Source of the DNA: Flagellimonas aquimarina
Lineage (GTDB): Bacteria > Bacteroidota > Bacteroidia > Flavobacteriales > Flavobacteriaceae
DNA length: 64,000 nucleotides
Reading direction: 5' to 3'
Assembly (NCBI RefSeq): GCF_003149745.1
Contig: NZ_QGEG01000001.1
Span: 186,001-250,000, forward strand
The position numbers were made by a program, and so were the translations under genes. Below the pieces are notes generated by a model. The model was not told the origin of the DNA, did not search any database, and saw nothing but the letters and a program-made list of their open reading frames with translations. This document shows, piece by piece, positions 10,890-28,432 of this stretch. Position 1 is the first letter of the stretch. Each line of letters begins with the position of its first letter.

Positions 10890-10919
10890 TTGTTGTAAAG
10901 CTATTGATTCGTGTTGTCA
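10890..10919 (-). promoter_or_regulatory. Candidate LytTR-type direct repeat upstream of the LruC gene
   Basis: On the + strand TTGTTGTAA (10890-10898) and GTGTTGTCA (10911-10919) form an imperfect direct repeat with start-to-start distance 21 bp. This matches the core and period of the exact repeat at 20189-20218 before the EPS operon. It ends 59 bp upstream of the LruC gene start. An AT-rich TAATATTTAC segment lies 26 bp closer to the gene on the minus strand. Binding by the LytTR protein encoded at 21692-22402 is inferred from geometry only. Confidence 0.45.
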
Positions 10920-14233: not shown

Positions 14234-15576
14234 TACCCTAAATGTGTTTTGAGGTTTTTAAGGAATAGTACACTTTCAGACACTATCTGTCCACTTTTAA
14301 TCTGAATCTCTCTCTTTAGGTAATAAAATCCCAGGAATATTCCCATTACAGTAAATAGTACAGTTCCCATTGCAACGGCAACCAAACTTTTAAATACGAA
14401 TACCGCTAAAAGATTTAGAATGATATTTGCGGATGTCATCACCAAAACCTTGTAAAGGTTCAACTTTGGTTTATTAATACTATCCAATAAAACTCCTGTA
14501 AAGCGATCAATAGGCAATAACATGATATAAACCGTAAATACTCTAAAGATCAAGGTCAGTAACGGCAATGAATCCATATACTCAGCTCCCCCCAAGAACA
14601 GCACCATATGCTCTGCAAATACAAAACTTACCAAAGCCACGGGAAAGAACAACATTGTAATGATGCCAACGTAGGAATAAAAAATCTTTTTAACTCCACT
14701 TAAATCTCCTTCAATGGATTTTTTGGACATTCTAGGGTAGGCTGTCATTGCAAAACTGTGCAATGGTATTCCCAAAAGATCTGTAAGTTTCAATGGTATG
14801 GCATACATTGCAATACCTGCCGAACCTAAAAAAGGACTCATTCCAATAATAAAAGTATCTGAGCTTTTCAATAAGCTGGAGCTTATGAGGGTACCCATAG
14901 AATATTTACCAAAATTTACCAGTTCTTTTCTTATGCTTCTCTTAGCATGTTTTACAAAGAAAAGTCCATCCCAATTTTTGATAGAACACCAGATACTGGA
15001 AACCATATTAACCGCAATATTCACCCAAATAATGTCAATCAAACCTAAGTGCAGCCACCATTGGTTTATCACAAGGAATATGCAGAACAATCCAACATTG
15101 GAAAGTCTTACCACCATCATTCGTCTAAAATTTTGCTCTGCCTGAAAAAGCGACATGGCGTTGTTCCAACTTAGATTGGAAAGTGCCAAAAAAGGATAGT
15201 AAAACAAGAATAACCTATATCCATTATTGATTTCAAGATTGTAACTAAGTAAGATTACGTGAGCTCCCCAACATAGAACTGTCAATATTCCCAAAAGATT
15301 TATATTGATTCTAAATGTAGAACCTAGTATGTTTTTTTGTTTTTGGTCATTTGCACCGGACAACAAACGAACAGAAGAGGTTCGAGTGAGTCCAAAACGT
15401 AAAAGGTCTACAAAAGTGGCCAAGGTTATAAATAAGACCCATTCCCCAAAAAGTTCTTTGCTCAATTGTCTTGTCAATAGCATGAAACTTACCAATCCCA
15501 AAAATGCAACACTAACGTTCGCCATTAATGAGGATAGATTTTTTTCTTTGCTGATATTTTTGAGTTGTTCTAACAT
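14233..15576 (-). CDS. Oligosaccharide flippase, Wzx-like (MATE/MVF superfamily)
   Basis: 447 residues with about twelve hydrophobic helices, beginning with a segment (SLMANVSVAFLGLVSFMLLTRQLSKELFGEW) that contains the LTRxLSKExFGEW-type start of polysaccharide-biosynthesis flippases. It would move undecaprenyl-linked repeat units across the inner membrane. It is joined by TAATG overlaps to both neighbours, the co-polymerase upstream (15576) and the polymerase downstream (14233), so the three export/polymerisation steps are translationally coupled. Confidence 0.9.
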   Translation of the reverse strand: MLEQLKNISKEKNLSSLMANVSVAFLGLVSFMLLTRQLSKELFGEWVLFITLATFVDLLRFGLTRTSSVRLLSGANDQKQKNILGSTFRININLLGILTVLCWGAHVILLSYNLEINNGYRLFLFYYPFLALSNLSWNNAMSLFQAEQNFRRMMVVRLSNVGLFCIFLVINQWWLHLGLIDIIWVNIAVNMVSSIWCSIKNWDGLFFVKHAKRSIRKELVNFGKYSMGTLISSSLLKSSDTFIIGMSPFLGSAGIAMYAIPLKLTDLLGIPLHSFAMTAYPRMSKKSIEGDLSGVKKIFYSYVGIITMLFFPVALVSFVFAEHMVLFLGGAEYMDSLPLLTLIFRVFTVYIMLLPIDRFTGVLLDSINKPKLNLYKVLVMTSANIILNLLAVFVFKSLVAVAMGTVLFTVMGIFLGFYYLKREIQIKSGQIVSESVLFLKNLKTHLG

Positions 15577-17807
15577 TAGGCAACTGATTCTTTGGTGAAA
15601 AATCTAAACTGAACTATCTTTTTTACCCAACTTCGAATCAATGATCTTTTCTTGGGTAGGTCGCCCACTACTGTTTCCATTTCCAAAACCTTTACTCCGT
15701 TAAGAATAACAGATGGTTCAGGTCCTGTTGTAGCTTCTTTAAATAAATTCAATGCATTTTTGTCTGCCTCGCCCCAAGCCCTATTGGCTCTGGTCACCAA
15801 AAAGGTATAATCCATGGTTGAAGCCAGTTTTACAGGAAACGGATTTTTTATAATGCTTGGAATTTCTAAAATGATAAAATCAAAAGTGTTGAAATCAGAA
15901 ATTGTATTGCCCGCATCAAACTCTTGAACATTTGAAATTTTATAAAGCTTATCGCTCACTTTGTATTCTATTTTATAATAAAATTCGGTAGTTAACCCAA
16001 GGTCTTGTTCATCATAACTAATGTGAAGCGTTTTATATTCCAGCTCGCATAATTTGGCAATTAAATGTCTACAGATAAAGGTTTTCCCTTCGTTTTCTTG
16101 AGTTGAAAACAACATATTGATCACCGGCTCGTTTTCTTTTTCTTTTTTATACTGATTTAGTATTACGTTTCTTGAAATGGCATTTACTGCCTTATTTTTG
16201 AGGTAATCATAGTCCAATTTTTTGTTCTTATCGCTTATTACAGGGAAAATAGAGGATACCTTTAATTCAATTTTATCTTCCGCTCTTTTTGCCGTATTAA
16301 GGTTTCCGTCCAAAAGCTCAAGGACAAGTATGGTAGCAGCCACTAAAACAAAGCCTACCATACCAGCTACAATAACCAAAAGCATGCGCTTACTTGGTTT
16401 TGGACTTATAGGAAAAAATGGCACTTCGGTCAGTTTTATATTGGATTTTAACTCTACATTTTGTTGACGAAGCTTGGCCAAACCAAGACTATGAAGCAAG
16501 CTTAAATATTCCCGTTCTGCAATATCAATTTTACGTTCCAATCTTTTCATTGTTGCTCCAAGGGGAGAAAACTCTTGATACAACTCTTTAAACTCCACAC
16601 GTTTTTGCTCCATCACCTTTAACTGTGCATTGTAGCCTTCATACTCTATGGTATTTTGCAGCCAGTCTGATAGTACGCTGGTAGATGCAATGCTCTTGGT
16701 ATCATAATCTGTGGTATAGAGTGTATCTATATGAGATGCCAACCTTCTCTCCAATGCATTGATCCTTTCCATTTTTTTCGAAACCTCTTTTCCATCTTTT
16801 TCGCGCTGGACAGAGTCTCTTGCCAACCCAAGAGTTTTCATTGAAACCTCAAAATTCAAGGTTGACAATTCCTTTCTAAGCTCCATAATGCTTTGACTGG
16901 AAATACGTTTTCTTTCATGGGTCTTTAACTTGGATTCCAGCACGGATAAAACAGCTTTGGATGCTTGAAACTTTCTTTGAACCTCAAAATATTTGATTTC
17001 AAATTCCTCTTTTTCAGCAGCTATGTGTTTGGTCTGCTCGTAATAGTTGATGATATTATTTGCTCTATTAAAATCTAAAAGTTCGTCTTCTGCACCTCTT
17101 AAATCCACGGTGGATTTTCCCAACTGCCCTTCAAAATATTTGACTACGGCATCCGATTGGTTTACCTTTATATCTGCGTTCAACTGAACAAAAACCTCGC
17201 ATAAAATCAACAAAGTATTTTGACAAATTGCTGGATCTTCAGACTCAAAATCAATATCAACAAAATCACTGTTAGAAATACGTCTTATACCTACTTTACC
17301 TGAAATTTTTTCTATACTGTAATCCGGGTGGTCCAGATTAATCAGCTTATAGATGTAGTTGGTATGGTCAGATTCTTTTAGGGCAACAAAATTCTCATAG
17401 GTTTTCTCCACATTACCTCTCACCACCAACTTCTTTACCTCTTCTGGAACATCTTCCATGAGGTTTTTATATTTATCTCTGGATATAATTTTAATATCCG
17501 CACTATCCAAAGCCATATGCTGTGTGAACAGCTTTAGGCCAACAATTTCCATGGTGGTTCGTGCTTTTATTAAGTTGAGAAGGTTATCGTAGGCCGTATT
17601 GGTAGCTCTAAAATCAATTTTGGTGTTTTCCAGTTCTATATTGGAGCCTGTGGCGATTCCTGTATAGATTCGAGCTTTTGAATTATACGCTTTTGGTTCA
17701 TCTCTGGTCATAAAAAACACCAAAGAAGCCAGGATTATGGGCATAGCTACCAATAAACCAATGTGTCTGAGTAAAAGACGAACAAAAAAAAGTAGATTAA
17801 ACTTCAT
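15576..17807 (-). CDS. Wzz/Wzc-like polysaccharide co-polymerase with degenerate kinase domain
   Basis: 743 residues. A Wzz-type domain with a first membrane helix at about residues 15-30, a long coiled-coil periplasmic part (about 200-450), a PxxP-type segment FFPISPKPSK and the second helix (about 470-490) is followed by a cytoplasmic domain resembling tyrosine autokinases. In that domain the P-loop reads STQENEGKT (GKT kept, first Gly lost), the Walker A' region is YDEQDLG, and the Walker B region is FIILEIPS with Glu for Asp. No tyrosine-rich C-terminal tail is present; it ends FRFFTKESVA. I infer chain-length control and export coupling, with weak or lost kinase activity. The gene is 2 nt downstream of the TolC-like gene. 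Confidence 0.88.
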   Translation of the reverse strand: MKFNLLFFVRLLLRHIGLLVAMPIILASLVFFMTRDEPKAYNSKARIYTGIATGSNIELENTKIDFRATNTAYDNLLNLIKARTTMEIVGLKLFTQHMALDSADIKIISRDKYKNLMEDVPEEVKKLVVRGNVEKTYENFVALKESDHTNYIYKLINLDHPDYSIEKISGKVGIRRISNSDFVDIDFESEDPAICQNTLLILCEVFVQLNADIKVNQSDAVVKYFEGQLGKSTVDLRGAEDELLDFNRANNIINYYEQTKHIAAEKEEFEIKYFEVQRKFQASKAVLSVLESKLKTHERKRISSQSIMELRKELSTLNFEVSMKTLGLARDSVQREKDGKEVSKKMERINALERRLASHIDTLYTTDYDTKSIASTSVLSDWLQNTIEYEGYNAQLKVMEQKRVEFKELYQEFSPLGATMKRLERKIDIAEREYLSLLHSLGLAKLRQQNVELKSNIKLTEVPFFPISPKPSKRMLLVIVAGMVGFVLVAATILVLELLDGNLNTAKRAEDKIELKVSSIFPVISDKNKKLDYDYLKNKAVNAISRNVILNQYKKEKENEPVINMLFSTQENEGKTFICRHLIAKLCELEYKTLHISYDEQDLGLTTEFYYKIEYKVSDKLYKISNVQEFDAGNTISDFNTFDFIILEIPSIIKNPFPVKLASTMDYTFLVTRANRAWGEADKNALNLFKEATTGPEPSVILNGVKVLEMETVVGDLPKKRSLIRSWVKKIVQFRFFTKESVA

Positions 17808-17809
17808 TA

Positions 17810-18547
17810 TTAAATATTCAAATCTGCTCCGATAATGTTTTCTAAAGCCATTATTGAAGAAATAAATTCTGAGCGTTGTAGTTCAAAATTCATTGTTGCT
17901 TGGTTCATCATTTGTTGCAAACGGGTATACTCAGTAACATTGATCACACCATTAGCAAAATCCTTTTCGGCCCTTATGGATTGAATTCTGAAGTTGTCCA
18001 CAATAGACCCCGAAATAAAAAACAACCGATGGGTCTTAAGTAAATCATTATAGAGTTCAACAACTTTTTGTTCTAATTCTACCTCTGCCACTTGGGTTTC
18101 AAAACGAGCTTTTTCCGCTTCTCCTTTTGCACTTTTTATCTTGGCCCTGCGGTTAATTATCGCAGACAAAGGCAACCGTAATGAAACACCGACGTTATAC
18201 CTACTTTGTTCCGTAGAAAAGAGGGTCTGGCTTCCTGGGTCACCTGCTATTTGAGAGTTGCTCAGATTATCAAAAATGCCATAGTTATAGCCTGCTTCTA
18301 AATTTATATACTCCAACCAAGCTCGTTGTTCATCTGAAACAACACCATCTCTATACTGTTGTTCTGAGATAGTCACTTTTATAAATGGCGAATATTCTTT
18401 GGCCATAAAAATAAGTGTGTCAATAGGTGGTAATTTTTTGCTGATATCATTTTCTTTGAGCCCTTTTTCAATAAAATCATTGATAGACTGACCAGCAACG
18501 GTTTGTAGTACCAAAAAAACCAATAAAAAGCCCCAAAATTTCTTCAT
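17810..18547 (-). CDS. Half-length TolC-like outer-membrane protein
   Basis: I chose ATG 18547 (245 residues): it gives a clear signal peptide, MKKFWGFLLVFLVLQTVAGQ, and a TAATG overlap with the sugar-transferase gene; the longer frame to 18598 would put 17 polar residues before it. The mature protein has the outer-membrane efflux pattern: long amphipathic helices, a region with alternating strand pattern (YNVGVSLRLPLS), and helix RAKIKSAKGEAEKARFETQ. Usual TolC proteins are about 420-500 residues with two such repeats; this one holds roughly one. It may form the export channel, as no Wza-type SLBB protein is encoded nearby, or act as an accessory factor. Confidence 0.8.
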   Translation of the reverse strand: MKKFWGFLLVFLVLQTVAGQSINDFIEKGLKENDISKKLPPIDTLIFMAKEYSPFIKVTISEQQYRDGVVSDEQRAWLEYINLEAGYNYGIFDNLSNSQIAGDPGSQTLFSTEQSRYNVGVSLRLPLSAIINRRAKIKSAKGEAEKARFETQVAEVELEQKVVELYNDLLKTHRLFFISGSIVDNFRIQSIRAEKDFANGVINVTEYTRLQQMMNQATMNFELQRSEFISSIMALENIIGADLNI

Positions 18548-19743
18548 TATACGTTCTCTTTTTGAAAAACTGCTCTGAACGTTCTCAGTACTATCCACAT
18601 ATCAATCAAAAAAGCGTACTTACTGTTAGCGTATTCTACATATTTAACATCCAGATTTTTACGTTCTTCCGGGGACATTTTGGAACTTCTTCCTCGAGCT
18701 TCTACCTGCCAAAGTCCTGTTATTCCTGCAGGGCCGTTGAACCTATTCGTCCATTCATCCGTAGTCAACACTTCGGCCTCATATAAAGGCAAAGGTCTAT
18801 TGCCCACCACGGACATATCTCCCTTAAGAACATTGATCAGCTGTGGCAATTCATCTATACTTAACTTTCTTATAATCTTTCCAACTTTGGTTATTCTAGG
18901 GTCGTTATCGAACTTTACAAAAGCACTCTTGGCACTTTCTTTACGTATGTTGTTATGAAGGTTCTCATCTACTTCAGCATCATCTCCAAAAAGAACCGTT
19001 CCTTGTGTCTTATCCAATGTTTGCCCAATACTTTCTTCCTTGGACTGTTCAAGGTCTTCGTGTGCATATTGATTTAAGTGCTGAAACTCTTTTAAACGCT
19101 TATCTGCATCTGGGTACATGGAGCGTAGTTTATAGAAATCAAAAATTTTATATCCTGTCCCCACTCTTTTGGAAATGTAATAGACCTTGCCCTTGGACTC
19201 TAGTCTAATAGCAATGATAAACAGTATCAGGAACGGGGAGCCCAACAATAAAGCGAGTCCCGCTACAGTGATATCAAAAGTTCGTTTCCAAAAACCTATT
19301 TTGTATTCTTTGTCCACTCCTTTTGATGGTGCAATTTTTTCCTTTTTTAAATTGACCTTAAGCTCTTTTAAAAAACGAACTCTATCCAAGATATTGGTTG
19401 TGGAAAGAGGTTGCACATAGAAATCATCTATACCATTTTTAACCGCTTCTGACAAGTCATTTTTGTTCCTATCCTTGGCTACCAAAATGAACGGAATGGA
19501 GCTGTTATTTGCGAACCTCTCCCTCAAAGTTTTATGAAACTCTATACCAGATTGTCCTGGAATTTGTTTTTCACAAAGAATGGCATCCACATTTTTATGT
19601 TCCTCTAGCCATTTAATGGCCAAAACGGAGTTTTTTGCAATGTGGAGATCTACTTTTTGGTCGCAGTCCATAAACTGTTCCACCACTTTTTGATTTGTTC
19701 CCACATAAAGAAGGCAAAGTTTCTTGTCCGAAATTACTTCCAT
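18547..19743 (-). CDS. Initiating sugar transferase fused to a degenerate receiver domain
   Basis: 398 residues. Residues 1-130 have receiver-domain spacing, but the active site is altered: the acidic pair after strand 1 is missing (LLYVGTNQ), the phospho-acceptor Asp is Glu58 (DAILCEKQIPG), and the conserved Lys is Gln111 (FYVQPLS). From about residue 150 there is a bacterial sugar transferase (Pfam PF02397 type): membrane helix in TFDITVAGLALLLGSPFLIL, KLRSM, DPRITKVGKIIRKLSIDELPQ, NVLKGDMSVVGNRPLP and GITGLWQVEARG. This domain transfers a sugar-1-phosphate to undecaprenyl phosphate, the first step of repeat-unit synthesis. About 50 extra residues separate KLRSM from DPRITK. The gene lies 5 nt downstream of a stand-alone receiver gene. 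Confidence 0.92.
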   Translation of the reverse strand: MEVISDKKLCLLYVGTNQKVVEQFMDCDQKVDLHIAKNSVLAIKWLEEHKNVDAILCEKQIPGQSGIEFHKTLRERFANNSSIPFILVAKDRNKNDLSEAVKNGIDDFYVQPLSTTNILDRVRFLKELKVNLKKEKIAPSKGVDKEYKIGFWKRTFDITVAGLALLLGSPFLILFIIAIRLESKGKVYYISKRVGTGYKIFDFYKLRSMYPDADKRLKEFQHLNQYAHEDLEQSKEESIGQTLDKTQGTVLFGDDAEVDENLHNNIRKESAKSAFVKFDNDPRITKVGKIIRKLSIDELPQLINVLKGDMSVVGNRPLPLYEAEVLTTDEWTNRFNGPAGITGLWQVEARGRSSKMSPEERKNLDVKYVEYANSKYAFLIDMWIVLRTFRAVFQKENV

Positions 19744-19748
19744 AATTC

Positions 19749-20114
19749 TTAAGCCCGTATAAGCAGTTTTTCTACTCTAATTAACAGTTCTTCAGGGTTA
19801 AATGGCTTTACCAAATAATCATCCGCACCCAATTTTAAACACTGAATACGATCCGCACTGCTATCTCTGCAACTCAACACGATTATTGGAATTTCAGCAA
19901 AATACCCGCTTTCCTTTATTTTTTGAATAAGTTCAAACCCATCCATATTTGGCATTTCCAAATCTGTAATAATCAAATCCGGAATATTCCCTTCCTGCAT
20001 CCATGACAATGCTGATAAACCATCTTCCATTGTGGTTACATTGTATGATTGTCCTAAAAACTGCGATACCAATTCGCTCAGCGATTGTTTATCATCTACT
20101 ACTAGAATTTTCAT
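19749..20114 (-). CDS. Stand-alone receiver protein (CheY-like)
   Basis: 121 residues forming one receiver domain with all key residues: Asp7/Asp8 in LVVDDKQ, phospho-acceptor Asp51 in IITDLEMPNMDG, Ser in IVLSCRD, and Lys in YLVKPFNPEEL. There is no output domain. It is the first gene of the EPS operon, followed 5 nt later by the pseudo-receiver sugar transferase, so it may be a phosphate sink, a partner of the pseudo-receiver, or an intermediate of the phosphorelay encoded upstream. The upstream gap holds an exact 21-bp-period direct repeat (20189-20218). Confidence 0.93.
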   Translation of the reverse strand: MKILVVDDKQSLSELVSQFLGQSYNVTTMEDGLSALSWMQEGNIPDLIITDLEMPNMDGFELIQKIKESGYFAEIPIIVLSCRDSSADRIQCLKLGADDYLVKPFNPEELLIRVEKLLIRA

Positions 20115-20154: not shown

Positions 20155-20218
20155 AAAAGTAGGATAAATATTACTTAATGATAATTCTATGTTGTAAAAC
20201 CAAGGCAGCATGTTGTAA
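20155..20218 (-). promoter_or_regulatory. Candidate EPS-operon promoter with LytTR-type direct repeat
   Basis: On the + strand ATGTTGTAA occurs at 20189-20197 and again at 20210-20218: an exact 9-bp direct repeat with a 12-bp spacer, i.e. 21 bp start to start. Twenty-four bp nearer the gene is AAAAGTAGGA (20155-20164), which on the minus strand reads TCCTACTTTT and contains TACTTTTC, one mismatch from the Bacteroidetes -7 element TAnnTTTG. No TTG is seen at the -33 distance, as expected for an activator-dependent promoter. The element lies 41-104 bp upstream of the receiver gene that starts at 20114. Confidence 0.55.
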
Positions 20219-20406: not shown

Positions 20407-21252
20407 CTATTGTGTAACCTCGTCCGTAATTAACGCCTTATACGCTTCTTCCATTGATTTTTTAGTAGGTATAAACCTTTCATTGCAAAATGGAAATGGC
20501 TTTGCAGGGTCCCTTTTTGGTGGTAAGGCAGTGTAAACATCAATGGGGACATATTTGAACTTACCAACGGTATAGAGTTTAATGGCCAGCATACCATCAT
20601 CACATCCTGAAACCGCCCTTAGGTCAGTTTCATACCCGATGGGAAGAATGGCATCCCTTCGGATTGCCATACAAACCGCTCTAATGTGCTTAATTTTTGT
20701 AGTAAAGCCTTGGGATAACTTCCACCGGAAATAAATATTTTTCACCTTGTTCCGAAATTTCATTTTGGAAGAGAGTTGAAAATCATCCTCATAACTTTTT
20801 GAAACGGAATAACAGAGTACAAGATCTTTGTCAACAAAAAAAGGAAGAGCCATTTTATCTATGTAATATGGATCATATATAGAATCTGGATCCATGGTAC
20901 ATACAATTTGCCCCTTGGCCTCTTCTAATCCTCTTTGTCTTGCATGGGTTATTCCCTGCTGTGCTTCACTTACAACTTTAGCTCCAAGTTGTTCAAGAAT
21001 GGACAGACTTTCTTCATCTGCATTATTTTCTACAAAAATGACTTCGTAAGGAATGATGGTTTTAAGATTGGCCAAGGAATATATATGGGCAATCAAAGTT
21101 TCTTTTGCCCTGTAAATCGGTACAATTAGGCTTACTGTAGGTTTGGCAACTGACGCTAGCAGTTCAAAATACGAGGTTAACTTGTTAAAATCATCATCGT
21201 TCAAGCTTTTTGGTGTAGCTCCAAAATATGGTTTATAGGCGGTAACTTTCAT
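20407..21252 (-). CDS. Glycosyltransferase family 2, last gene of the signalling cluster
   Basis: 281 residues. A GT2 domain starts at about residue 38 with PTVSLIVPIYRAKETLIAHI, then EVIFVENNADEES, QGITHARQRGLEEAKG and CTMDPDSIYDP, where DPDS is the metal-site motif. A C-terminal SGCDDGMLAIKLY segment supplies the acidic catalytic pair. No membrane helix is apparent. The gene lies 27 nt after the STAS gene and is separated from the EPS operon by 292 nt. Its position ties polysaccharide synthesis to the signalling genes, and it may act on the same polymer. Confidence 0.85.
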   Translation of the reverse strand: MKVTAYKPYFGATPKSLNDDDFNKLTSYFELLASVAKPTVSLIVPIYRAKETLIAHIYSLANLKTIIPYEVIFVENNADEESLSILEQLGAKVVSEAQQGITHARQRGLEEAKGQIVCTMDPDSIYDPYYIDKMALPFFVDKDLVLCYSVSKSYEDDFQLSSKMKFRNKVKNIYFRWKLSQGFTTKIKHIRAVCMAIRRDAILPIGYETDLRAVSGCDDGMLAIKLYTVGKFKYVPIDVYTALPPKRDPAKPFPFCNERFIPTKKSMEEAYKALITDEVTQ

Positions 21253-21279
21253 TTTTTAAGCTCTTTTTAGTTTCACCAA

Positions 21280-21582
21280 TTAGACACGGTCCGAACTTAA
21301 AATGTAATTGGTTTTTGTAGCGTTCATGATTTCGGAAATACTATGGTTCTGCCTTCCTATTAGAGAGATAACCTTATTTTGCCTAACAGACTTTTGGTAA
21401 AACTTTTCAAAGAAGTGTGCAGCAGCGGAATCCAACGTAGTTACTTTTTCTAAGCTGATCACAACATTGTCATGCTGTTCCAAAACGGAATCAAAATATG
21501 AGCTCAAAGCACTTACATGCTGTATAGATACTTTTCCCAATATTTCGAATATTCCTCTGTTCTCCCTTATTTCTAATGACAT
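21280..21582 (-). CDS. STAS-domain protein
   Basis: 100 residues, the size of one STAS domain (SpoIIAA-like). The pattern of strands and helices fits: IRENRGIFEILGKVSIQ, then VVISLEKVTTLDSAAAHFFEKF, where the Ser in LDSAA is at the place of the regulated serine in the DSSG motif of anti-sigma-factor antagonists. No partner kinase or PP2C phosphatase gene is present in the window. It lies between the LytTR regulator gene (109-nt gap) and a glycosyltransferase gene. It may bind a kinase or another regulatory protein; the partner is unknown. Confidence 0.75.
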   Translation of the reverse strand: MSLEIRENRGIFEILGKVSIQHVSALSSYFDSVLEQHDNVVISLEKVTTLDSAAAHFFEKFYQKSVRQNKVISLIGRQNHSISEIMNATKTNYILSSDRV

Positions 21583-21691
21583 ATGCTAAAAAGATTTAAT
21601 TATTAAATTGTGTCCCTAATTAACATTTTCAAAAAGCGTCTAAATATATTAACGTAAAATAGGGTATATATTGTAGTATTTTTCTTTCTTT

Positions 21692-22402
21692 TTATAAAAG
21701 ATTCAGTCGCTGCATTAATTCTGGTCTATTAGATCTGCTTATTGGAATGACACTCCGCTCTATTAGAACACTATTGTCCTGTATATCTATTATTTGAGTG
21801 AAGTTTATTATAAACGAACGGTGAATTTGAAGGAACCTGCACTCGGGCAACTTTTCCTTTATTTTCTTAAGTGTTGAGTGCACTCTATATCGTTTGGCCC
21901 TAGTTTGTATTTCTATATAGTCCCCTTTTGCTTCTATCAGCAAGATATCCATGAATTTTAATTTTATCAATCGCCTATCTATATTGATATAAAGGTCTTC
22001 ATCTTCGTTCTGGGTTGTATTTATTTCTGGTTGTTCGAGCGGTGTTTTTTGAAAAGTACTTTCCAATTTACAAGCACATTTTTTAAACCGTTCAGAAGAA
22101 ATTGGTTTAACCAGATAGTCAACTATAAATTCATATTCATAGGCTTCAATAGCAAAGTTTTTATCCGATGTGGTCAACACAATTTTTGGAGGGTTATTTA
22201 CTGTTTCTATAAAATCGACTCCAGAGAGTTTGGGCATATGAATATCCAAGAAAATTAAATCTACTTTGGTGTGTCTAATGTATTTAAGTGCTTCCAACGC
22301 ATTTGGAAACTCTGCTACCACCTCCATATCTGGAATGGTCTTGCACAGTTCTGCCACAATGGCCCTGGCACTTGTCTCATCATCCACAATAATACACCTC
22401 AT
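21692..22402 (-). CDS. LytTR response regulator
   Basis: 236 residues. An N-terminal receiver domain (Asp7/Asp8 in CIIVDDET, phospho-acceptor Asp53 in LIFLDIHMPKLSG, Thr in VLTTSDK, Lys in YLVKPIS) is followed after a linker by a LytTR DNA-binding domain from about residue 135: LIKLKFMDILLIEAKGDYIE, RVHSTLKKIKEKLP, FLQIHRSFIINFTQI and VIPISRSNR. This is the only DNA-binding output in the signalling cluster, so it is the likely end of the phosphorelay. It starts 1 nt after the HPt gene stop. LytTR proteins bind paired 9-bp direct repeats with about 21-bp period, which are present at 20189-20218 and 10890-10919. Confidence 0.95.
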   Translation of the reverse strand: MRCIIVDDETSARAIVAELCKTIPDMEVVAEFPNALEALKYIRHTKVDLIFLDIHMPKLSGVDFIETVNNPPKIVLTTSDKNFAIEAYEYEFIVDYLVKPISSERFKKCACKLESTFQKTPLEQPEINTTQNEDEDLYINIDRRLIKLKFMDILLIEAKGDYIEIQTRAKRYRVHSTLKKIKEKLPECRFLQIHRSFIINFTQIIDIQDNSVLIERSVIPISRSNRPELMQRLNLL

Positions 22403-22403
22403 C

Positions 22404-22736
22404 TTATGCTATCTTTAAAATAAATTCCTCAACGGACTGTAAAATCTTATGAAACTCCTCTTTGAGTTTTGTATCTCCATATTTTAGGTCTTCTTCATAT
22501 TTAACGGCAAGTTTATACCCGCTATTAAGCCCTAGAATACCAAATTTGTGTTTTATTTTGTGCACAACCTTTGCGGATTCCTCTAAGTTATCACGCTCTA
22601 GATATTCTGCATATTCTATTTTCTCTTTTGGAAACTCGGTTTGGATGATAGTCAAGAATTTCTTTTCAAATTCTTCATTTCCACCTGAAATTTCCTTTAT
22701 ATAATTAAGATTTGGCTTCTCTGTCATTGTGCTCAT
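22404..22736 (-). CDS. Histidine phosphotransfer (HPt) protein
   Basis: 110 residues (107 if the ATG at 22727 is used), all helical, with the HPt core AKVVHKIKHKFGILGL; His59 is the expected phosphorylated residue, in the place of the AHxLKG motif. It would shuttle phosphate from a receiver to the LytTR protein. The 5' end overlaps the preceding histidine kinase gene by 32 nt (23 nt for the shorter start), and the LytTR gene begins 1 nt after its stop. Both kinases in the cluster lack receiver domains, so an HPt here implies a separate receiver as intermediate. Confidence 0.88.
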   Translation of the reverse strand: MSTMTEKPNLNYIKEISGGNEEFEKKFLTIIQTEFPKEKIEYAEYLERDNLEESAKVVHKIKHKFGILGLNSGYKLAVKYEEDLKYGDTKLKEEFHKILQSVEEFILKIA

Positions 22737-23778
22737 TTTTTATTGTAAAAAAGAAAGTTGTACCCATACCTTCTCCAGAGGATAACCAGATATCCCCCCT
22801 GTAATAATTTATAATTTTCTTTACCAACGCAAGTCCAATCCCAGTTGCTCCAGAGTTGTTTTCAAGCTTTTTGAACATATCAAAAATGCCTGCCTGCAAA
22901 TGTTTGGGAATTCCCTTTCCATTGTCCGATACACTAAATAGCCAACCATCCTTTTCCTCTTTTACATCTATCATCACTTGCCCATATCTCCTGTCTTCAG
23001 TTGCCGTAATCGCATTGGTAATTAAATTCTTGAACAACTGCTCTATTCTGTACTTTCCCGTATACAATTTTGGCAGTTTTTCACTCTTTTTTATTTTGAC
23101 ATTTTCGGGAACATATATAGTTTGTCCTATTTCGTCAATCAACAAATTAAGGTCTATCATTACAGCACTTTCTTGAATAGAGTCTATTGTTGAATGACGA
23201 AGAATACCATCAATTAAACCATCCATCTTAGATAGGTTCTGAAAAATAAGCTGTACGTTTTCCTTGTTTTCTTCTTTGAAACCATCCTGTCCGTCCTCAA
23301 ACACCCAGCTCACCAAAGAATGCACGTTTCTTATTGGCGATTTTAAATCATGTGATACCATATGTGCATAGTTGTTCAATGACTCATTCTGTTGTTCCAG
23401 GTTTTTCAAGAGCATATCCTTTTCTGCAGTTATTTCTACAAGTTTATGTGCTTGTTTTTCTATATCCTCGACCAATTTTTGTGGATTAAAATCCAACTTA
23501 CCGTTTATGCGGTCGCTGGTTTTGTGCTGCATAGAGGCAACTGCCTTGCTTAAAGCATCCAAGACTTTTCTTTGGCCTTCCGTTTCTTTATACAGCCTTT
23601 GATTGGCCTCATATAACTCCTCTGAGCTTAAAGACGTGGCCCTCTGAATCATTTTCAGTTTTTCATCGAAATCTGAGTATGATTTACTGATAGAATTAAA
23701 GAACGTCTCCATTTCTGGATGTTCCACTACCTCTTTTGGGAAGAATTTCTTTATTTGTCTTTTAAGCAGGGAATGCAT
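22705..23778 (-). CDS. Histidine kinase, NahK-like, paired with the FIST protein
   Basis: 357 residues. The N-terminus (LLKRQIKKFF, then SKSYSDFDEKLKMIQRATSLSSEELYEANQ) matches the helical region typical of kinases encoded next to FIST/NosP or H-NOX proteins. A coiled coil at about 100-135 leads to HisKA (NYAHMVSHDLKSPIRN, His143) and HATPase (NLITNAITATED, DNGKGIPKHLQ, GATGIGLALVKKI). No PAS, no membrane helix and no receiver domain. Signal input must therefore come from a partner protein; the FIST-domain gene ends 0 nt upstream, so the two are very probably partners. Its 3' end overlaps the HPt gene. Confidence 0.92.
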   Translation of the reverse strand: MHSLLKRQIKKFFPKEVVEHPEMETFFNSISKSYSDFDEKLKMIQRATSLSSEELYEANQRLYKETEGQRKVLDALSKAVASMQHKTSDRINGKLDFNPQKLVEDIEKQAHKLVEITAEKDMLLKNLEQQNESLNNYAHMVSHDLKSPIRNVHSLVSWVFEDGQDGFKEENKENVQLIFQNLSKMDGLIDGILRHSTIDSIQESAVMIDLNLLIDEIGQTIYVPENVKIKKSEKLPKLYTGKYRIEQLFKNLITNAITATEDRRYGQVMIDVKEEKDGWLFSVSDNGKGIPKHLQAGIFDMFKKLENNSGATGIGLALVKKIINYYRGDIWLSSGEGMGTTFFFTIKNEHNDREAKS

Positions 23779-24906
23779 TTACTCGCTCAATAATGTTAGG
23801 GTCATGGTTTGGTTATGCAATTGGCACTCATTCTTTCCGGCAAATGGCGCCATTTCTCCGTATGAGTAAAACCCAGCGATTTTTGCTTGGTCTCCTATGA
23901 TCTCCGCCACCTCTTCAATTTCGTCTTCGGTACGTTGGTCCAGCACTAATTTTCTACCCACGCAACTTACCAAAATGGCCAGCTCTGGTTTATTCTTTCT
24001 ATCTCTCATTGCCAACACTGCAGCATTGGATGCTCCCTCGGCAATATCATCTACTGTGGACATCATCAATTGTACTTTTGCGTTCATTGGCATATCTCCT
24101 GCCAATATCATTGAGTTTTCTTCCTCATCTATATTAAGAATAGTACGCACCAATGGCTCGGACTCATCATTTTGCTGAACGGTCAGCGGGTATAAAAGTG
24201 CTGCTTTTGGCAACTCGTTAGCTTTATCGCCCAAGTACATTTTATAAAGATCCAACGCAGGTTTTCCATCAATCTCAAAGAGGACATTACCTTCAGATTT
24301 GGTGATCGTTCTTTCTGGGCCAAATGGTGTCCAACCCCCAAAATTTGCATAAGAAACTTCGAGATCTCCTCCATAAAAACCAATGGCCACCACTTCCCCT
24401 TGCTTTGGATTCTCATTGTATGAAGTCAATGTTTTTTCAAACCTGGCTCCATCTCCGCATAACCCTCCCGTAATTGACGCACTAAAACCGTCTGCTGATT
24501 CCAAACCATCTATTAGGTCACTCCCATTTACAAAGCTTCCATCAGAAACAATGAACATATGCCTAAGCTGTTCTTTGTCAAACCGATTTGAAATAGCCAA
24601 GCCCATTTTCTCAATATCATCATGGTTTGAAACATTTTCACTTACTATGGTGAAACGAGTTTTTTCAAATTCTATCGCGGTCAACGTAATGCTTTCCTCA
24701 TAAACACTGGTTTCCATAATCTCTCCTGAAGTAGACCCAAAAACAAGATGGCCCTTAGGGTAGAGCTCCTTTACCTCATTGAACAAATCCTTGGATTCCA
24801 GTAAATATCTATCTCCAAAAATAAGGACCAATGGTTCTTGTAAGGGTTCGTTTTGACCAAACTCCCACACTCCTCCTTTTAATCTTTTTGCTTGATTTAT
24901 CTTCAT
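23779..24906 (-). CDS. FIST-domain sensor (NosP-type candidate NO sensor)
   Basis: 375 residues covering FIST_N and FIST_C. FIST_N is seen as PLVLIFGDRYLL, GHLVFGSTSGEIM and SITGGLCGDGARF; FIST_C as AILVSCVGRKLVL, then a GFYSYGEMAPF segment and a terminal CQLHNQTMTLTLL, the family's most conserved C-terminal block. Members next to NahK-type kinases have been shown in Pseudomonas, Vibrio and Shewanella to be haem-containing NO sensors (NosP). The cytoplasmic protein directly precedes the histidine kinase gene (stop and start adjacent at 23779/23778). Haem binding is inferred from this context; the haem ligand cannot be assigned from sequence alone. Confidence 0.88.
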   Translation of the reverse strand: MKINQAKRLKGGVWEFGQNEPLQEPLVLIFGDRYLLESKDLFNEVKELYPKGHLVFGSTSGEIMETSVYEESITLTAIEFEKTRFTIVSENVSNHDDIEKMGLAISNRFDKEQLRHMFIVSDGSFVNGSDLIDGLESADGFSASITGGLCGDGARFEKTLTSYNENPKQGEVVAIGFYGGDLEVSYANFGGWTPFGPERTITKSEGNVLFEIDGKPALDLYKMYLGDKANELPKAALLYPLTVQQNDESEPLVRTILNIDEEENSMILAGDMPMNAKVQLMMSTVDDIAEGASNAAVLAMRDRKNKPELAILVSCVGRKLVLDQRTEDEIEEVAEIIGDQAKIAGFYSYGEMAPFAGKNECQLHNQTMTLTLLSE

Positions 24907-24918
24907 TATTTTCTGTTT

Positions 24919-27324
24919 TTAAGAATCTTTTTTAAGTGAAAAGTAGAACGTAGTTCCTACTCCTATTTCACTTTCCAGCCAGACTTTACCGTCATACCTA
25001 TCAATAATCTTTTTAACTATTGAAAGTCCAATTCCTGTTGAACGTTCATTGTTTCCAATAGATTGAAAAATCTGGAAGATTTTTTCATGGTATTCCTTGG
25101 GTATTCCCACCCCATTATCTTTTACACTAAACTCCCAATGTGTGGAGCGCTCTTTAAAATCTATCTCTACCAATCCATCTGGTTTATCAATATTTACAAC
25201 TGCATTGCTCAAAAAGTTCTGGAACAATTGATGTATTTTGGTTTTGTCCGCTTTTATAAGTGGTAATTTCTTTTTGGTTTTTATTGTAACATTCTCAGGG
25301 ATATAAATGATTTCTTTAATTTCATGAATTACCTCATTTACGTCAACTTCCGTATGATCTAAAACATCATTATTAACTGTTGAATATTTTAAAATTCCGC
25401 TAATTAATTTGTCCATTCCCTCAATTTTCTCCTGCATCATCTTTAGATTGTACAGCCCATTTTCATCCAAAGAATCCTTATAATCATCATAAAGCCATGT
25501 CGCCAAAGCACTTACACTTCTTAATGGCGATTTTAAATCATGAGAAACTATATGGGCATATTCTTGCAGCCCCTTATTACTTGACTCAAGCTCTCTTAAG
25601 AGATTTTCTTTTTGTAGTTCAAGGTGTTTTTGGGCGGTAATATCTAAATGAATGCCTATTGAACCTATTACATTTCCTGCATCATCATATCTTGGGGCAC
25701 CACTCACCAGCCAAAACCTCTTTTCTCCGTTGGCAATTTTAACGGCCACCTCATACGAGTCCGAAATTCCTTCTACTTCCTTTTTGTGATGTAGTTTTAA
25801 ATCATCCGTTTCATCGCTGGTAATGGGAACTGCCTCGTAAACATTTTTTCCAATCAATTCATTGGCAGAATACCCTACCATGTCGCTAAAGCTTTGGTTG
25901 ATCATTAGAATATTGCCATCGCTATCAACTTCAACAAGACCAAGGTTCATGTTTGCGATAATACTGCCGTACTTTTCTTTTTGAATTTCTAGATTCTTTC
26001 TGTAGTTCTTTCTTAAAGTCACATCGTTATAACTCCAAAGGTGTCCTTGATACTCTCCATTATTAAACAAAGGAATATAGTCGCGTTCAAATGTTCTACC
26101 ATCTAGGAGCTCCATTTCATCTGCTGTAACCACCTCTTTTTGATCAATAACATGATTTGTTCTTTTCAAAGCTGTGTCCGGCTCCAAGAACATGTTCTTG
26201 TATTTGTGAATGGATTGCCCCCCGTTTACCCCTTTTAGTACGTCTGGTGAAACGACAATTCCGAAAAGATCGCAAAACTTTTGATTTGCCAATACTATCT
26301 TTCTGTCCTGATCCTCTAACAGAATTCCAGTTTGAAGATTCTTGATCAAGGTTCCCATGCGTTCTTCCGAGGCTCTAAGTTTTTCTTCAGAGATTTTTTC
26401 ATAGGTAATGTCTTCTATCATGGCAACATTATATTCTACATCTCCTTTTGCATCTAAGAGAGAGCTCATAGATGTTTTTCCGTATAGCGTTTCTCCGTTC
26501 TTTTTGTAGAATTTGCGAATTATGGAAAACTTTTTAGTGTCGTTTTCCAGACTCTTTTGCAATAGATTATCATACAGATTGCTATCTTCTAAGGAAGAAA
26601 TCTCATCCAAGGACATTTTCTTGAGTTCAACCTCAGAATACCCGAGCAACTCAATAAAGGACTTGTTGGCCTTTATTATTTTGTCCTTTACAATCAATAA
26701 AATTCCCAATGAAGAATTCTCTACAATGATATCTTGCTGTTTCTTTTGTTTCTCTAAAAGCTGTTTTATTTCAATCTCTTGGGTAATATCCCTTATCACT
26801 CCCTGTGCAGCTATTGGACTTCCATTTTCATTGTAAATAAGACTTGCATTTATGTTTACAAACTTCTCCTCTTGATTCTTTGTTACAATTTTTGCAGAAT
26901 AGTTTTTTAGCACCCCTACCTGCAGCAATGTTTGAAACGATTCTGCTGTGTATTCCAAATAGTCTGGATGTACTAAATCCGAAAGACAGATTTTTTCTTT
27001 TATATGATCATACCCTAAAAACTCCTTTGCAGAAGTGTTCATATTGATCACATTCGACATTAGATCCATAACTACATATGGATCAATAATGTTGACAAAA
27101 GCGTTATCTATGCGGGTTCCTCCATCATTCAATAAGGTTTCCAAGCGTCCATTCGCTTCTTTAAGATGTAAAGAGGCGTCATAGAGTTCTTTTGCTTTAT
27201 TTTCCAGCAAACTCTCTGCGGTCTTACGGGCCTTTTTCTCCCGCAACAAAGCTCTTTTTAATATGGAAACTTCGCTACTATCCATTTTGGTGGATCGCAA
27301 ACTTGACTTCTGTTCCGTTTTCAT
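24919..27324 (-). CDS. Multi-PAS histidine kinase paired with H-NOX (HnoK-like)
   Basis: 801 residues. The N-terminal helix ILKRALLREKKARKTAESLL is typical of kinases encoded beside H-NOX proteins. Four PAS-like modules follow (about 66-180, 195-310, 320-440, 450-570), then HisKA (QEYAHIVSHDLKSPLRS, His595) and HATPase (NFLSNAVVNID, DNGVGIPKEYHE, STGIGLSIVKKII). No membrane helix and no receiver domain are present, so phosphate must pass to a separate receiver. The 5' end overlaps the H-NOX gene by 47 nt, a strong sign of paired expression. It may read NO through H-NOX and other signals through its own PAS domains. Confidence 0.93.
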   Translation of the reverse strand: MKTEQKSSLRSTKMDSSEVSILKRALLREKKARKTAESLLENKAKELYDASLHLKEANGRLETLLNDGGTRIDNAFVNIIDPYVVMDLMSNVINMNTSAKEFLGYDHIKEKICLSDLVHPDYLEYTAESFQTLLQVGVLKNYSAKIVTKNQEEKFVNINASLIYNENGSPIAAQGVIRDITQEIEIKQLLEKQKKQQDIIVENSSLGILLIVKDKIIKANKSFIELLGYSEVELKKMSLDEISSLEDSNLYDNLLQKSLENDTKKFSIIRKFYKKNGETLYGKTSMSSLLDAKGDVEYNVAMIEDITYEKISEEKLRASEERMGTLIKNLQTGILLEDQDRKIVLANQKFCDLFGIVVSPDVLKGVNGGQSIHKYKNMFLEPDTALKRTNHVIDQKEVVTADEMELLDGRTFERDYIPLFNNGEYQGHLWSYNDVTLRKNYRKNLEIQKEKYGSIIANMNLGLVEVDSDGNILMINQSFSDMVGYSANELIGKNVYEAVPITSDETDDLKLHHKKEVEGISDSYEVAVKIANGEKRFWLVSGAPRYDDAGNVIGSIGIHLDITAQKHLELQKENLLRELESSNKGLQEYAHIVSHDLKSPLRSVSALATWLYDDYKDSLDENGLYNLKMMQEKIEGMDKLISGILKYSTVNNDVLDHTEVDVNEVIHEIKEIIYIPENVTIKTKKKLPLIKADKTKIHQLFQNFLSNAVVNIDKPDGLVEIDFKERSTHWEFSVKDNGVGIPKEYHEKIFQIFQSIGNNERSTGIGLSIVKKIIDRYDGKVWLESEIGVGTTFYFSLKKDS

Positions 27325-27820
27325 TCAATAGTTTATATTCTACTTTTGCCAACTTTCCAAAGTGTTCAAATGTTTTTACAATTAGCCCATGCGCCAAAGC
27401 ATAGAGCCCTCTTGAAGAGCTGTAAATCATTTCTAGTGAATTGTCTGTTTTTGAAAGTATTTTAAATTGAGGTAATTCTGCATCTGGGTAAAGCTTCTTT
27501 ACATGTATATGAATATGATCTTCTATGCAGTGAAGAAGTCCAATAGGTGTTCTGTAACTTGAAACCACTTCTGGGTGAGCGTCAACAAGCCCAACAAACA
27601 AATGATGACCAAAAGAATACAACAAATCTTCCTTTGAAGTTTTCTTTTTTTTGCTGAGTTCAGAAATCAAGCTCACCATCTCATTAAAGTCATATGTACC
27701 CACCGAGGTGTATGCCCCTCCGGATGGAAGGTCACAATTCTCCAACAGGGAATCCACGGTCTCCAGTCCATAAATAGACTCGACCATTTCCATAAACTCA
27801 GTAAAAACAATTCCTTTCAT
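27278..27820 (-). CDS. H-NOX haem nitric-oxide sensor
   Basis: 180 residues, a complete stand-alone H-NOX (HNOB) domain. It starts MKGIVFTEFMEMVES, as in family members. The proximal haem ligand is His104 (EDHIHIHVKKLYPDAELP, aligned to the family pattern xxIHxxVxKLY) and the haem propionate motif YxSxR is Tyr133-Ser135-Arg137 (MIYSSSRG). Other expected segments are SFGHHLFVGL and the C-terminal LAHGLIVKTF. It should bind haem and NO in the cytoplasm and inhibit or switch the kinase whose gene overlaps its 3' end. A -7-like element and half-site shared with the EPS promoter lie upstream (27841-27884). Confidence 0.95.
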   Translation of the reverse strand: MKGIVFTEFMEMVESIYGLETVDSLLENCDLPSGGAYTSVGTYDFNEMVSLISELSKKKKTSKEDLLYSFGHHLFVGLVDAHPEVVSSYRTPIGLLHCIEDHIHIHVKKLYPDAELPQFKILSKTDNSLEMIYSSSRGLYALAHGLIVKTFEHFGKLAKVEYKLLNENGTEVKFAIHQNG

Positions 27821-27840
27821 AATAAAGAATATTATGATTT

Positions 27841-27884
27841 AAAAGTAGGAATTGTACTACCTAATTAAAAAAAGAATGTTGTGA
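27841..27884 (-). promoter_or_regulatory. Candidate promoter of the H-NOX gene, similar to the EPS promoter
   Basis: On the + strand AAAAGTAGGA (27841-27850) is identical to the -7-like element before the EPS operon, and 25 bp beyond it lies ATGTTGTGA (27876-27884), one mismatch from the EPS repeat half-site ATGTTGTAA; at the EPS promoter the distance is 24 bp. A second half-site is poor: only TGTT at 27897-27900, 20 bp after the first TGTT. The element starts 21 bp upstream of the H-NOX start codon. Confidence 0.4.
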
Positions 27885-27898
27885 AATAAAGAATTTTG

Positions 27899-28297
27899 TT
27901 AGGCTTTGACCAGCTCGCTAATCTCCCAATAGTCAAAAACTTTTTTCAGTTTAGACTCGTAATCCTCATATTTTAAAGGCTTTATGATGTATCCAGCGAT
28001 TCCAACCTCAAAGCATTTTAATAAATCAACACGATTTTCTGATGTGGTCAAAATAATGATTGGCAGATACTTAAGTCTATCATCTGCTTTTAGAATAGAA
28101 AGGAATTCGATACCACTCATGCGTGGCATATTAAGGTCTAGAAGGATAATATCAGGTAGAGTTCCTCCCTTTAAGAATTCCAGGGCTTCCTCTCCATTTT
28201 TAGCTTCGGTGATCTTGTGTTTGGACTGAAACTTAGAAGTTGCTCGTTGCAATTTCATAGTTTCTATCATATCATCTTCTATAAACAGAACATTCAT
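27899..28297 (-). CDS. Stand-alone receiver protein, first gene of the signalling cluster
   Basis: 132 residues, one receiver domain of the Rcp1/CheY-like type: Glu7-Asp8-Asp9 in LFIEDDMIE, phospho-acceptor Asp54 in IILLDLNMPRMSG, Thr in ILTTSENR and Lys in YIIKPLK. No output domain. It lies 78 nt upstream of the H-NOX gene in the same direction. Because both kinases lack receivers and an HPt protein is encoded in the same cluster, this protein is the best candidate for the first phosphate acceptor in a kinase-receiver-HPt-LytTR relay. Confidence 0.93.
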   Translation of the reverse strand: MNVLFIEDDMIETMKLQRATSKFQSKHKITEAKNGEEALEFLKGGTLPDIILLDLNMPRMSGIEFLSILKADDRLKYLPIIILTTSENRVDLLKCFEVGIAGYIIKPLKYEDYESKLKKVFDYWEISELVKA

Positions 28298-28432
28298 GAC
28301 ACTTTGGGTTTAGTATACAAAAGTCTTAAAAGGCACTAAGAAAAAGACTACAATTTAGTTAAACAAGAAATAACTATCGATGAATGGTAGAAATCCTTCG
28401 GTTAAAGATCAATAATTTTTACTATACGGTTT

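Follow-up and report, generated by a model that had tools for sequence, protein, structure and literature searches.

How can two histidine kinases that both lack a receiver domain pass a signal on? The question is raised by a run of genes in a 64,000-nucleotide stretch of the genome of Flagellimonas aquimarina (contig NZ_QGEG01000001.1, positions 186,001 to 250,000; the whole stretch is hereafter the window, numbered from its first letter), in which an H-NOX protein and a FIST protein, each with an adjoining kinase, precede an HPt protein and a LytTR response regulator. The host genome is of the Allomuricauda/Flagellimonas type within the Flavobacteriaceae, a family of major colonisers of algae and marine particles. 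Nitric oxide (NO) is a known biofilm signal, and its action has mostly been worked out in Proteobacteria with a cyclic di-GMP (c-di-GMP) output. The gene run is likely to encode a conserved, probably NO-responsive His-Asp phosphorelay of the Flavobacteriaceae with a LytTR transcriptional output directed to itself and to exopolysaccharide (EPS) genes. This reading draws on the observed anatomy of the locus, the conservation of its phospho-residues, a removable sensor cassette, the linkage to EPS genes and the placement of a promoter box.

Proposed relay and predicted sensors in the window

All the genes named in the first-pass annotation of this DNA are present where it had placed them, on the minus strand, in the transcription order RecA, H-NOX, HK1, FIST, HK2, HPt, LytTR, STAS, GT2, RecB, RecST and EPS locus, where RecA, RecB, RecST, HK1 and HK2 are labels coined for this analysis. 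The first nine are as follows.

27899..28297, minus strand: RecA, a lone CheY-like receiver (Pfam Response_reg, 77.6 bits)
27278..27820, minus strand: H-NOX, with proximal His104 and Y133-S135-R137 (Pfam HNOB and motif residues)
24919..27324, minus strand: HK1, a kinase with four PAS stretches and no receiver (Pfam HisKA/HATPase)
23779..24906, minus strand: FIST protein, NosP-like but under the NosP cut-off (Pfam FIST, FIST_C)
22705..23778, minus strand: HK2, a kinase with neither a recognised sensor domain nor a receiver (Pfam HisKA/HATPase)
22404..22736, minus strand: HPt protein, with His59 (Pfam Hpt, 17.6 bits, below the cut-off of 24.6)
21692..22402, minus strand: LytTR response regulator, the proposed output (Response_reg and LytTR)
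21280..21582, minus strand: STAS protein (Pfam STAS)
20407..21252, minus strand: GT2 glycosyltransferase (Pfam Glycos_transf_2)

From RecA to LytTR the genes are separated by 0-78 nt or overlap, and the 47-nt overlap of the H-NOX and HK1 genes noted previously is real (27278-27324); gaps of 109 nt and 292 nt lie between LytTR and STAS and ahead of RecB, respectively. The closest named relative is an uncultured Allomuricauda (L047, H-NOX 96% identical), followed by Flagellimonas and other Allomuricauda records. The arrangement is not a chance one, its order recurring in dozens of named and sampled genomes. Two sets of loci were compared: a named set, made up of the 80 named records that match the H-NOX alignment best and biased to close kin, in which downstream counts refer to the 72 loci with at least 6 kb of downstream DNA, and a family sample of 299 Flavobacteriaceae genomes, drawn evenly, including that of F. 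aquimarina, and not selected by similarity.

Both kinases contain HisKA and HATPase domains and, as annotated at first, neither has a receiver according to Pfam, HK1 containing PAS repeats in addition. The proposal that the lone receiver, HPt and LytTR proteins could complete a relay is upheld, with RecA directly upstream of H-NOX in all 79 named loci with enough upstream DNA and in 97 of the 99 family loci, and with the predicted acceptor residues kept throughout. RecA retains Asp8, Asp9, Asp54 and Lys106 in 79/79 homologues, the phospho-His of HK1 is found in 68 of 80 homologous frames (the remaining 12 are not covered at that position) and that of HK2 in 51/51, while HPt His59 is kept in 75/75 and LytTR Asp53 in 72/72. 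The LytTR regulator has both of its domains, receiver (69.7 bits) and LytTR (69.4 bits). The HPt protein, which carries the phospho-His motif, falls below the Pfam gathering score, a relative in L024 scoring 24.5. When HK2 (HK2 only, not HK1) was used as query against its own genome, the best paralogue was HK1 (213 bits, 45%), the next match reaching 72 bits and 29%. The ungapped DHp stretches of the two kinases are 44% identical, versus 10-24% for the seven of 14 other kinase matches in which the H-box was recovered by script; the four best-scoring others (L129-L132) are not among these seven. Because HK1 and HK2 share a transmitter type within one gene run, a shared receiver is favoured, and the order of phosphotransfer is deduced from the conserved acceptor residues. 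A lone receiver related to that of LytTR lies between HPt and LytTR in one further locus (L122:12891-13962).

The window H-NOX scores 125.7 bits with the Pfam HNOB model (cut-off 25.5), and the previously noted His104 and YSSSR motif, that is Y133, S135 and R137 of the haem motif Y-x-S-x-R, are kept in 80/80 homologues, by which conservation this H-NOX is an orthodox one. Its nearest solved relatives are H-NOX structures, the best-scoring being that of Kordia algicida (6BDD; PMC7356049, no pathway being given in the available text), which aligns without gaps over residues 1-179. Haem and NO binding are predicted for this protein. No copper nitrite reductase match was found in the F. aquimarina genome, other NO sources not having been searched, and endogenous NO from this enzyme is rejected for now; NO may therefore come from outside, for instance, as a guess, from algae.

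The FIST protein has both the N- and C-terminal domains (Pfam FIST 150 bits, FIST_C 122 bits), with His116 and Cys150 kept in 51/51 homologues and Cys315, Cys361 and His364 in 50/51, with one gap. The labels 'NosP-type' for this protein and 'NahK-like' for HK2 stand as far as resemblance goes. Membership of the families does not: the FIST protein reaches 50 bits against the NCBIfam NosP equivalog cut-off of 450, by which model score it is rejected as a NosP member, and HK2, which has no receiver, reaches 69 bits against the cut-off of 400 for the NosP-associated kinase (NahK/near_NosP_CTERM).

A fixed core and a removable FIST-HK2 cassette

Among the 72 named loci, HK1 is present in 72, HPt in 71, LytTR in 68 and FIST in 50, and the order HK1-FIST-HK2-HPt is found in all 50 FIST-bearing loci. 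Where FIST is missing, HPt follows HK1 within 200 nt in 21/22 loci. On a quick tree built from RecA, H-NOX, HPt and LytTR (72 rows, with 18 of its 69 inner branches left open and certain long branches coming together), the presence of FIST changes at least 11 times and the type of EPS locus at least twice. The core of RecA, H-NOX, HK1, HPt and LytTR is nearly fixed, and given this number of changes FIST-HK2 behaves as an optional plug-in input in a single slot.

In the genus, H-NOX is encoded in 16 of 36 genomes, including that of F. aquimarina, and FIST adjoins it in 12 of the 16. Full-length RecST is found in the same 16 genomes and in 0/20 others, a co-occurrence which may reflect one clade. 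The locus of G034 (L029) is without FIST and has kept HK2, and that of G003 (L032) has lost both FIST and HK2, with HK1 joined to HPt. The RecST frame of the latter genome is interrupted by a TAG stop (L032:9746-10942), and a FIST-kinase pair occurs in G027 (L038:6987-9888), an 88% complete genome in which no H-NOX was found.

In the family sample, H-NOX is encoded in 105 and FIST in 87 of the 299 genomes, and both in 68. FIST lies within 6 kb of H-NOX on the same strand in 58 of the 105 H-NOX genomes, 1.3-2.7 kb downstream in 57 and upstream in one. The occurrence of both sensor-kinase pairs in one cluster, considered unusual in the first-pass annotation, is thus common, and the idea that such a dual cluster is rare is rejected; a FIST-hnox neighbourhood also appears in group 1 of the published H-NOX genome-neighbourhood network (PMC8738867, section 10). 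A neighbourhood search in relatives had been set beforehand as a test of the cluster, and the two kinase pairs do occur together, in the above order, in 50/72 named loci. For locus-level counts, 103 H-NOX genomes were listed (G000 and G020 left out) and 100 regions used (not G515, G506 and G561), with only the first copy included for genomes with two H-NOX genes; 99 loci were analysed after removal of L143, in which the window query gave no H-NOX match by tblastn. In these loci RecA is present in 97/99, HPt in 91/96, LytTR in 88/96, FIST in 55/96 and the whole core in 87/96. At the level of the class, H-NOX matches were obtained in 72/395, and the loci covered outside the family were L020, L023, L037, L039-L041 and L044-L046.

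Polysaccharide loci and a shared promoter box

The adjacency to EPS genes reported for the window recurs in the family and extends to a shared promoter box. Two unrelated kinds of polysaccharide locus follow the relay. Type A, the kind in the window, comprises RecB, RecST, an outer-membrane protein, a Wzz-like protein, a flippase and a Wzy-like protein, and in F. aquimarina, where a DUF4114 gene also lies in the locus, is made up of the following genes.

19749..20114, minus strand: RecB, a lone receiver with canonical residues (Pfam Response_reg)
18547..19743, minus strand: RecST, a bacterial sugar transferase with a degenerate receiver fused to it (Bac_transf 178.5 bits, Response_reg 42.8 bits)
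17810..18598, minus strand: outer-membrane efflux-type protein (OEP, 63 bits)
15576..17807, minus strand: candidate chain-length protein, which we take to be Wzz-like (no Pfam match over cut-off)
14233..15576, minus strand: polysaccharide flippase-type protein (Polysacc_synt, 65.9 bits)
12758..14233, minus strand: Wzy-like polymerase/ligase (Wzy_C 35.2 bits, cut-off 31.7)
8876..10831, minus strand: DUF4114/DUF4842 protein (domain match)

The receiver-transferase fusion at 18547-19743 was not mentioned in the first-pass annotation. Type B comprises an opposite-strand TPR outer-membrane protein (TPR-OMP), STAS, a flippase, a GT4 glycosyltransferase, a GH5-like hydrolase and, in some cases, a receiver-GT2 fusion. 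In the named set, 14/72 loci are of type A and 45/72 of type B, the latter called by the TPR-OMP match alone, and 28 of these 45 also contain a flippase or GT4 within 10 kb. The upstream flank contains polysaccharide-type matches in 1/69 named loci. One or other type lies downstream in 63/93 loci of the family sample. The type-B GT4 is encoded in 72 of the 299 family genomes, and 66 of these have H-NOX, versus 39 of the 227 others (Fisher p 2.6e-31, ignoring kinship). It lies within 40 kb of H-NOX in 58 genomes, in all 58 downstream and on the same strand.

Receivers recur in both types. RecB, with Asp51 in 16/16 homologous matches, accompanies RecST in 14/14 named and 9/9 family-sample type-A loci, and in the RecST receiver Glu replaces the phospho-Asp in 14/14. 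Two loci outside the family but within the order, L039 and L040, have an HPt-like gene directly before RecB-RecST, unlike L041, where the search gave none, and this arrangement hints that HPt may act on RecB too. The stretches of DNA examined in L039 and L040 are without an H-NOX match. In type B, L109 (18398-19537, from its domains) encodes a GT2 glycosyltransferase with a canonical receiver fused to it, and frames of similar length occur in L072, L094 and L108. The phospho-Asp is present in 6/6 receivers of this kind, two of the six loci not being demonstrated fusions. A match to this receiver-GT2 protein was found downstream in 30/93 family loci, some of which are possibly lone receivers. 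A DUF4114-type protein is encoded downstream of LytTR in L063, L065, L066, L069, L082, L093, L121 and L124, that of L066 carrying a Por secretion tail. In eight Maribacter loci (L078, L080, L083, L085, L091, L092, L096 and L115), LytTR and the polysaccharide genes are separated by one more kinase gene, which is on the opposite strand and in most cases encodes a receiver as well.

A 14-base word, CCATTCGTCTACAG, which occurs in tandem with a 21-bp period, was discovered in type-B loci, where it precedes the TPR-OMP/STAS genes. In 1.5 Mb of named loci, matches with at most one mismatch lie in gaps beside relay or polysaccharide genes, namely before RecA, STAS, flippase or GT4, or after LytTR. 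With at most four mismatches the box is found upstream of RecA in 71/78 loci, window included, versus 5.1 in shuffled sequence, and in 49/77 RecA promoters of the named set the best further copy stands at a distance of exactly 21 nt. The box was tested independently, at up to three mismatches, in 81 loci not used for its discovery, the 18 family loci sharing DNA with named loci being excluded. It occurs in 61/79 RecA promoters (0.2 shuffled, 1 on the other strand), before GT4 in 31/40 and in the TPR-OMP gap in 33/42. Of the RecA promoters, 71 have a box with at most four mismatches, and 54 of these contain another copy at a distance of exactly 21 nt. It was found upstream of HPt in 0/74 and of LytTR in 0/73. 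Over the 99 loci (1.9 Mb) 94 of 95 matches with at most one mismatch share the orientation of the relay, and all 95 fall outside the genes detectable with the query set. At the same threshold, 16 genomes of the named set, scanned over their whole length, contain 68 matches, versus 17 for the reversed word, and as there are 1-6 per genome the regulon looks small.

Of the 139 loci with LytTR, 129 have the box (at most four mismatches), as do 3 of the 8 loci lacking LytTR. In the Pseudozobellia and Euzebyella loci L077, L079 and L081, which have HPt and no LytTR, it is absent before RecA, GT4 and flippase, and L171, a locus with DNA in common with a named one, resembles them; the loss in these loci may be one event. 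All four encode H-NOX, FIST, both kinases and HPt. Known LytTR operators consist of paired 9-bp repeats 10-13 bp apart, lie mostly upstream of the -35 element and are autoregulatory (PMC11347149, PMC6193735, as far as the available text goes). A direct repeat with this spacing is present here as the 21-bp period in the family, its second half being weak in the genus. The geometry fits, and by this analogy LytTR would be the protein that binds the box.

In the window three sites are predicted.

28374..28387, minus strand: LytTR-type box CCATTCATCGATAG in the relay operon promoter, 76 nt upstream of the start codon of RecA
20190..20218, minus strand: direct repeat TTACAACA-N13-TTACAACA, period 21 bp, 0 mismatches, in the RecB/EPS operon promoter
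10891..10919, minus strand: another TTACAACA direct repeat, with 1 mismatch, some 60 nt upstream of the DUF4114 gene

The CCATTCATCGATAG site has 0 mismatches to the degenerate consensus, the data for which include it, and 3 to CCATTCGTCTACAG. In the 15 further loci of the genus, the best box match lies 75-77 nt before RecA in 15/15. The TTACAACA repeat, at up to two mismatches, has two matches in the window versus 0.09 expected, and was found as a pattern in 13/15 aligned type-A promoters, window included. Its 15 zero-mismatch matches, in 12 of 59 genomes, are all in H-NOX genomes, one of them in G034 on another contig. A joint core for both kinds of site (TACARCA, YTACAR) was tried and gave a period-21 peak in 11/80 loci, inseparable from the type-A repeats. 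The half-site of the TTACAACA repeat differs from that of the relay box and the period is the same, and by analogy both may be bound by the same protein.

Proposed circuit, alternatives and known systems

In the proposed circuit, the Fe-NO state of H-NOX would set the activity of HK1, and FIST that of HK2 as an optional second input between HK1 and HPt. Both kinases would phosphorylate RecA at Asp54, from which the phosphate would pass to HPt His59 and LytTR Asp53, and phosphorylated LytTR would bind the tandem, 21-bp-spaced boxes at the promoter of its own operon (autoregulation) and at polysaccharide promoters. The predicted targets in Allomuricauda are the Wzx/Wzy-type EPS operon starting with RecB-RecST, together with the DUF4114 gene, via the TTACAACA repeats. 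By analogy with Vibrio, NO would inhibit the kinases and lower EPS output. For the transcriptional branch, the comparative promoter evidence is strong for type B, and extends by analogy to the type A of the window.

A number of observations weigh against this circuit. Neither kind of polysaccharide locus is in reach in 30/93 family loci, 39 H-NOX genomes are without the GT4, and in G015 (L024) a compact core lies apart from its EPS locus. In the independent loci the box was found before flippase in only 6/42, before the DUF4114 gene in only 6/37 and before RecB in only 1/6 type-A loci; 10 of the 139 LytTR loci lack it, and L126, L155 and L172 retain it (4, 3 and 2 mismatches) though LytTR was not found. 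The window contains 19 box matches at up to three mismatches versus 19.8 expected, so that taken alone CCATTCATCGATAG is indistinguishable from chance and its support is comparative, the box being weak in the genus (1-5 mismatches in 15/15 loci). The EPS promoters of the window and of close type-A loci have TTACAACA repeats instead of CCATTCGTCTACAG, a pattern which is unspecific at one mismatch (matches in 30/59 genomes, own included, and for the reversed control too), and in this genome the step from LytTR to EPS is argued from position, the 21-bp period and analogy. LytTR Thr77 is kept in 61/72 homologues, with Ile in 10 and Ser in 1, the Ile variants being the awkward ones. Outside the Flavobacteriaceae, L020 and L037 have no HPt or LytTR match and L023 no HPt match. 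Finally, the sampled genomes are related and the shuffle controls ignore kinship.

The part of the circuit most open to a different reading is the second input. The FIST protein is a doubtful and unproven candidate for an NO sensor, its sequence having no match to solved FIST structures, and there is a real, if smaller, chance that it responds to a different small molecule, so that an NO input (H-NOX-HK1) and another input (FIST-HK2) meet on one relay. The low NosP score, the gain and loss of the cassette separately from H-NOX on the quick tree and the seeming redundancy of two NO sensors on one relay speak for this, whereas the FIST-kinase pairs of Burkholderia, Legionella and Vibrio are NO-responsive in the available accounts (PMC12570481, PMC11237717, PMC6769237) and FIST co-occurs strongly with H-NOX, 68 of the 87 FIST genomes having it. 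That H-NOX itself responds to O2 or to redox state instead of NO is hardly probable: alternative signals are discussed in the available text of PMC8738867, O2 is bound by some H-NOX proteins (PMC9814294, available text) and Tyr140 is kept in 80/80 homologues, but a conserved Cys site is lacking, Cys29 and Cys98, the two Cys of the window protein, being kept in 9/80 and 15/80. Going by residue numbering, Tyr140 is probably not the O2-binding position.

Downstream of the kinases, the run might instead be divided into two parallel lines, HK1-RecA-HPt-LytTR and HK2-RecB-RecST, with FIST controlling the sugar transferase directly. The constant pairing of RecB with RecST and the HPt-like gene before them in L039 and L040 (not in L041) are consistent with such a division, which is nevertheless improbable given that FIST-HK2 also occurs in type-B loci without RecB-RecST and is absent from the type-A loci L032, L145 and L238, and that the two kinases are of the same transmitter type. 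It is about as doubtful, or slightly more so, that the boxes belong to another regulator and that the neighbouring genes are inherited together without being controlled by the relay; the type-A EPS repeat is unlike the relay box and three loci keep the box though LytTR was not found, but the box stands at the relay's own promoter with LytTR geometry, and L077, L079 and L081 have neither the box nor LytTR (perhaps one event). A single relay with a LytTR output thus remains the preferred reading, and a tentative and rather unlikely extension would give it two outputs, transcription through LytTR and the box, and direct control by phosphorylation of polysaccharide-building enzymes. As a true receiver, RecB, adjoins RecST, whose own receiver has Glu for Asp, phosphorylated RecB could pair with the latter and so control EPS synthesis at its first committed step. 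If true, NO would halt slime production in two stages, within seconds through the enzyme and afterwards through the promoter, and phosphorelay-gated glycosyltransferases would constitute a response-regulator output without description in the literature searched.

Comparable parts are known from other bacteria, the following being limited to the available text of the sources. In Vibrio fischeri, a pathway leads from H-NOX/HahK through the HPt of SypF to the syp exopolysaccharide locus (PMC8738867); as here, an H-NOX-partnered kinase acts through an HPt on an exopolysaccharide locus, NO lowering the output, whereas the V. fischeri HPt forms part of SypF as one of its domains and here the receiver and HPt are stand-alone, the output is LytTR, a FIST-kinase cassette is in the same run and EPS genes adjoin. 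The NO-sensor-regulated kinases of Vibrio cholerae NosP-VpsS and Vibrio harveyi H-NOX-HqsK converge on one HPt, LuxU, though these are hybrid kinases in a quorum-sensing relay with LuxO as output, and both sensors in one operon are not described there (PMC6769237). FIST proteins stand beside kinases in the NosP-NosK-NosR and NosP-NahK-NarR operons, where NosK, like HK2, has no recognised sensor domain (PMC12570481, PMC11237717); their output is c-di-GMP-related, unlike the HPt and LytTR here, and the present FIST sequence is below the NosP model cut-off. The operators of HdrR, RcoM1 and CoxC likewise consist of two or three direct repeats spaced by about 21 bp and involve autoregulation (PMC6193735, PMC11347149), with a different half-site sequence, and the input here is a phosphorelay. 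Section 10 of the H-NOX network account describes no relay, LytTR, EPS linkage, boxes or Flavobacteriaceae (PMC8738867), and no account of this relay was found in the open-licence literature on H-NOX, NosP, LytTR, Bacteroidetes, Flavobacteriaceae and exopolysaccharide, though it may be described elsewhere. What is known is that NO phosphorelays converge on HPt proteins; what is new is a conserved flavobacterial circuit with a LytTR-type promoter box.

The relay explains where the phosphate can go though neither kinase has a receiver. H-NOX is found in about a third of the sampled genomes of the family, with one fixed relay in 87/96 loci, often with a second sensor cassette, and the relay is tied to polysaccharide genes both physically and by a promoter box. 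Loci with the cassette present or absent, or with LytTR missing, provide a natural experiment across many genomes, and exact test sequences are now available for a direct circuit from NO to matrix. Through this relay, NO probably tells these bacteria when to make, or to stop making, their polysaccharide coat.

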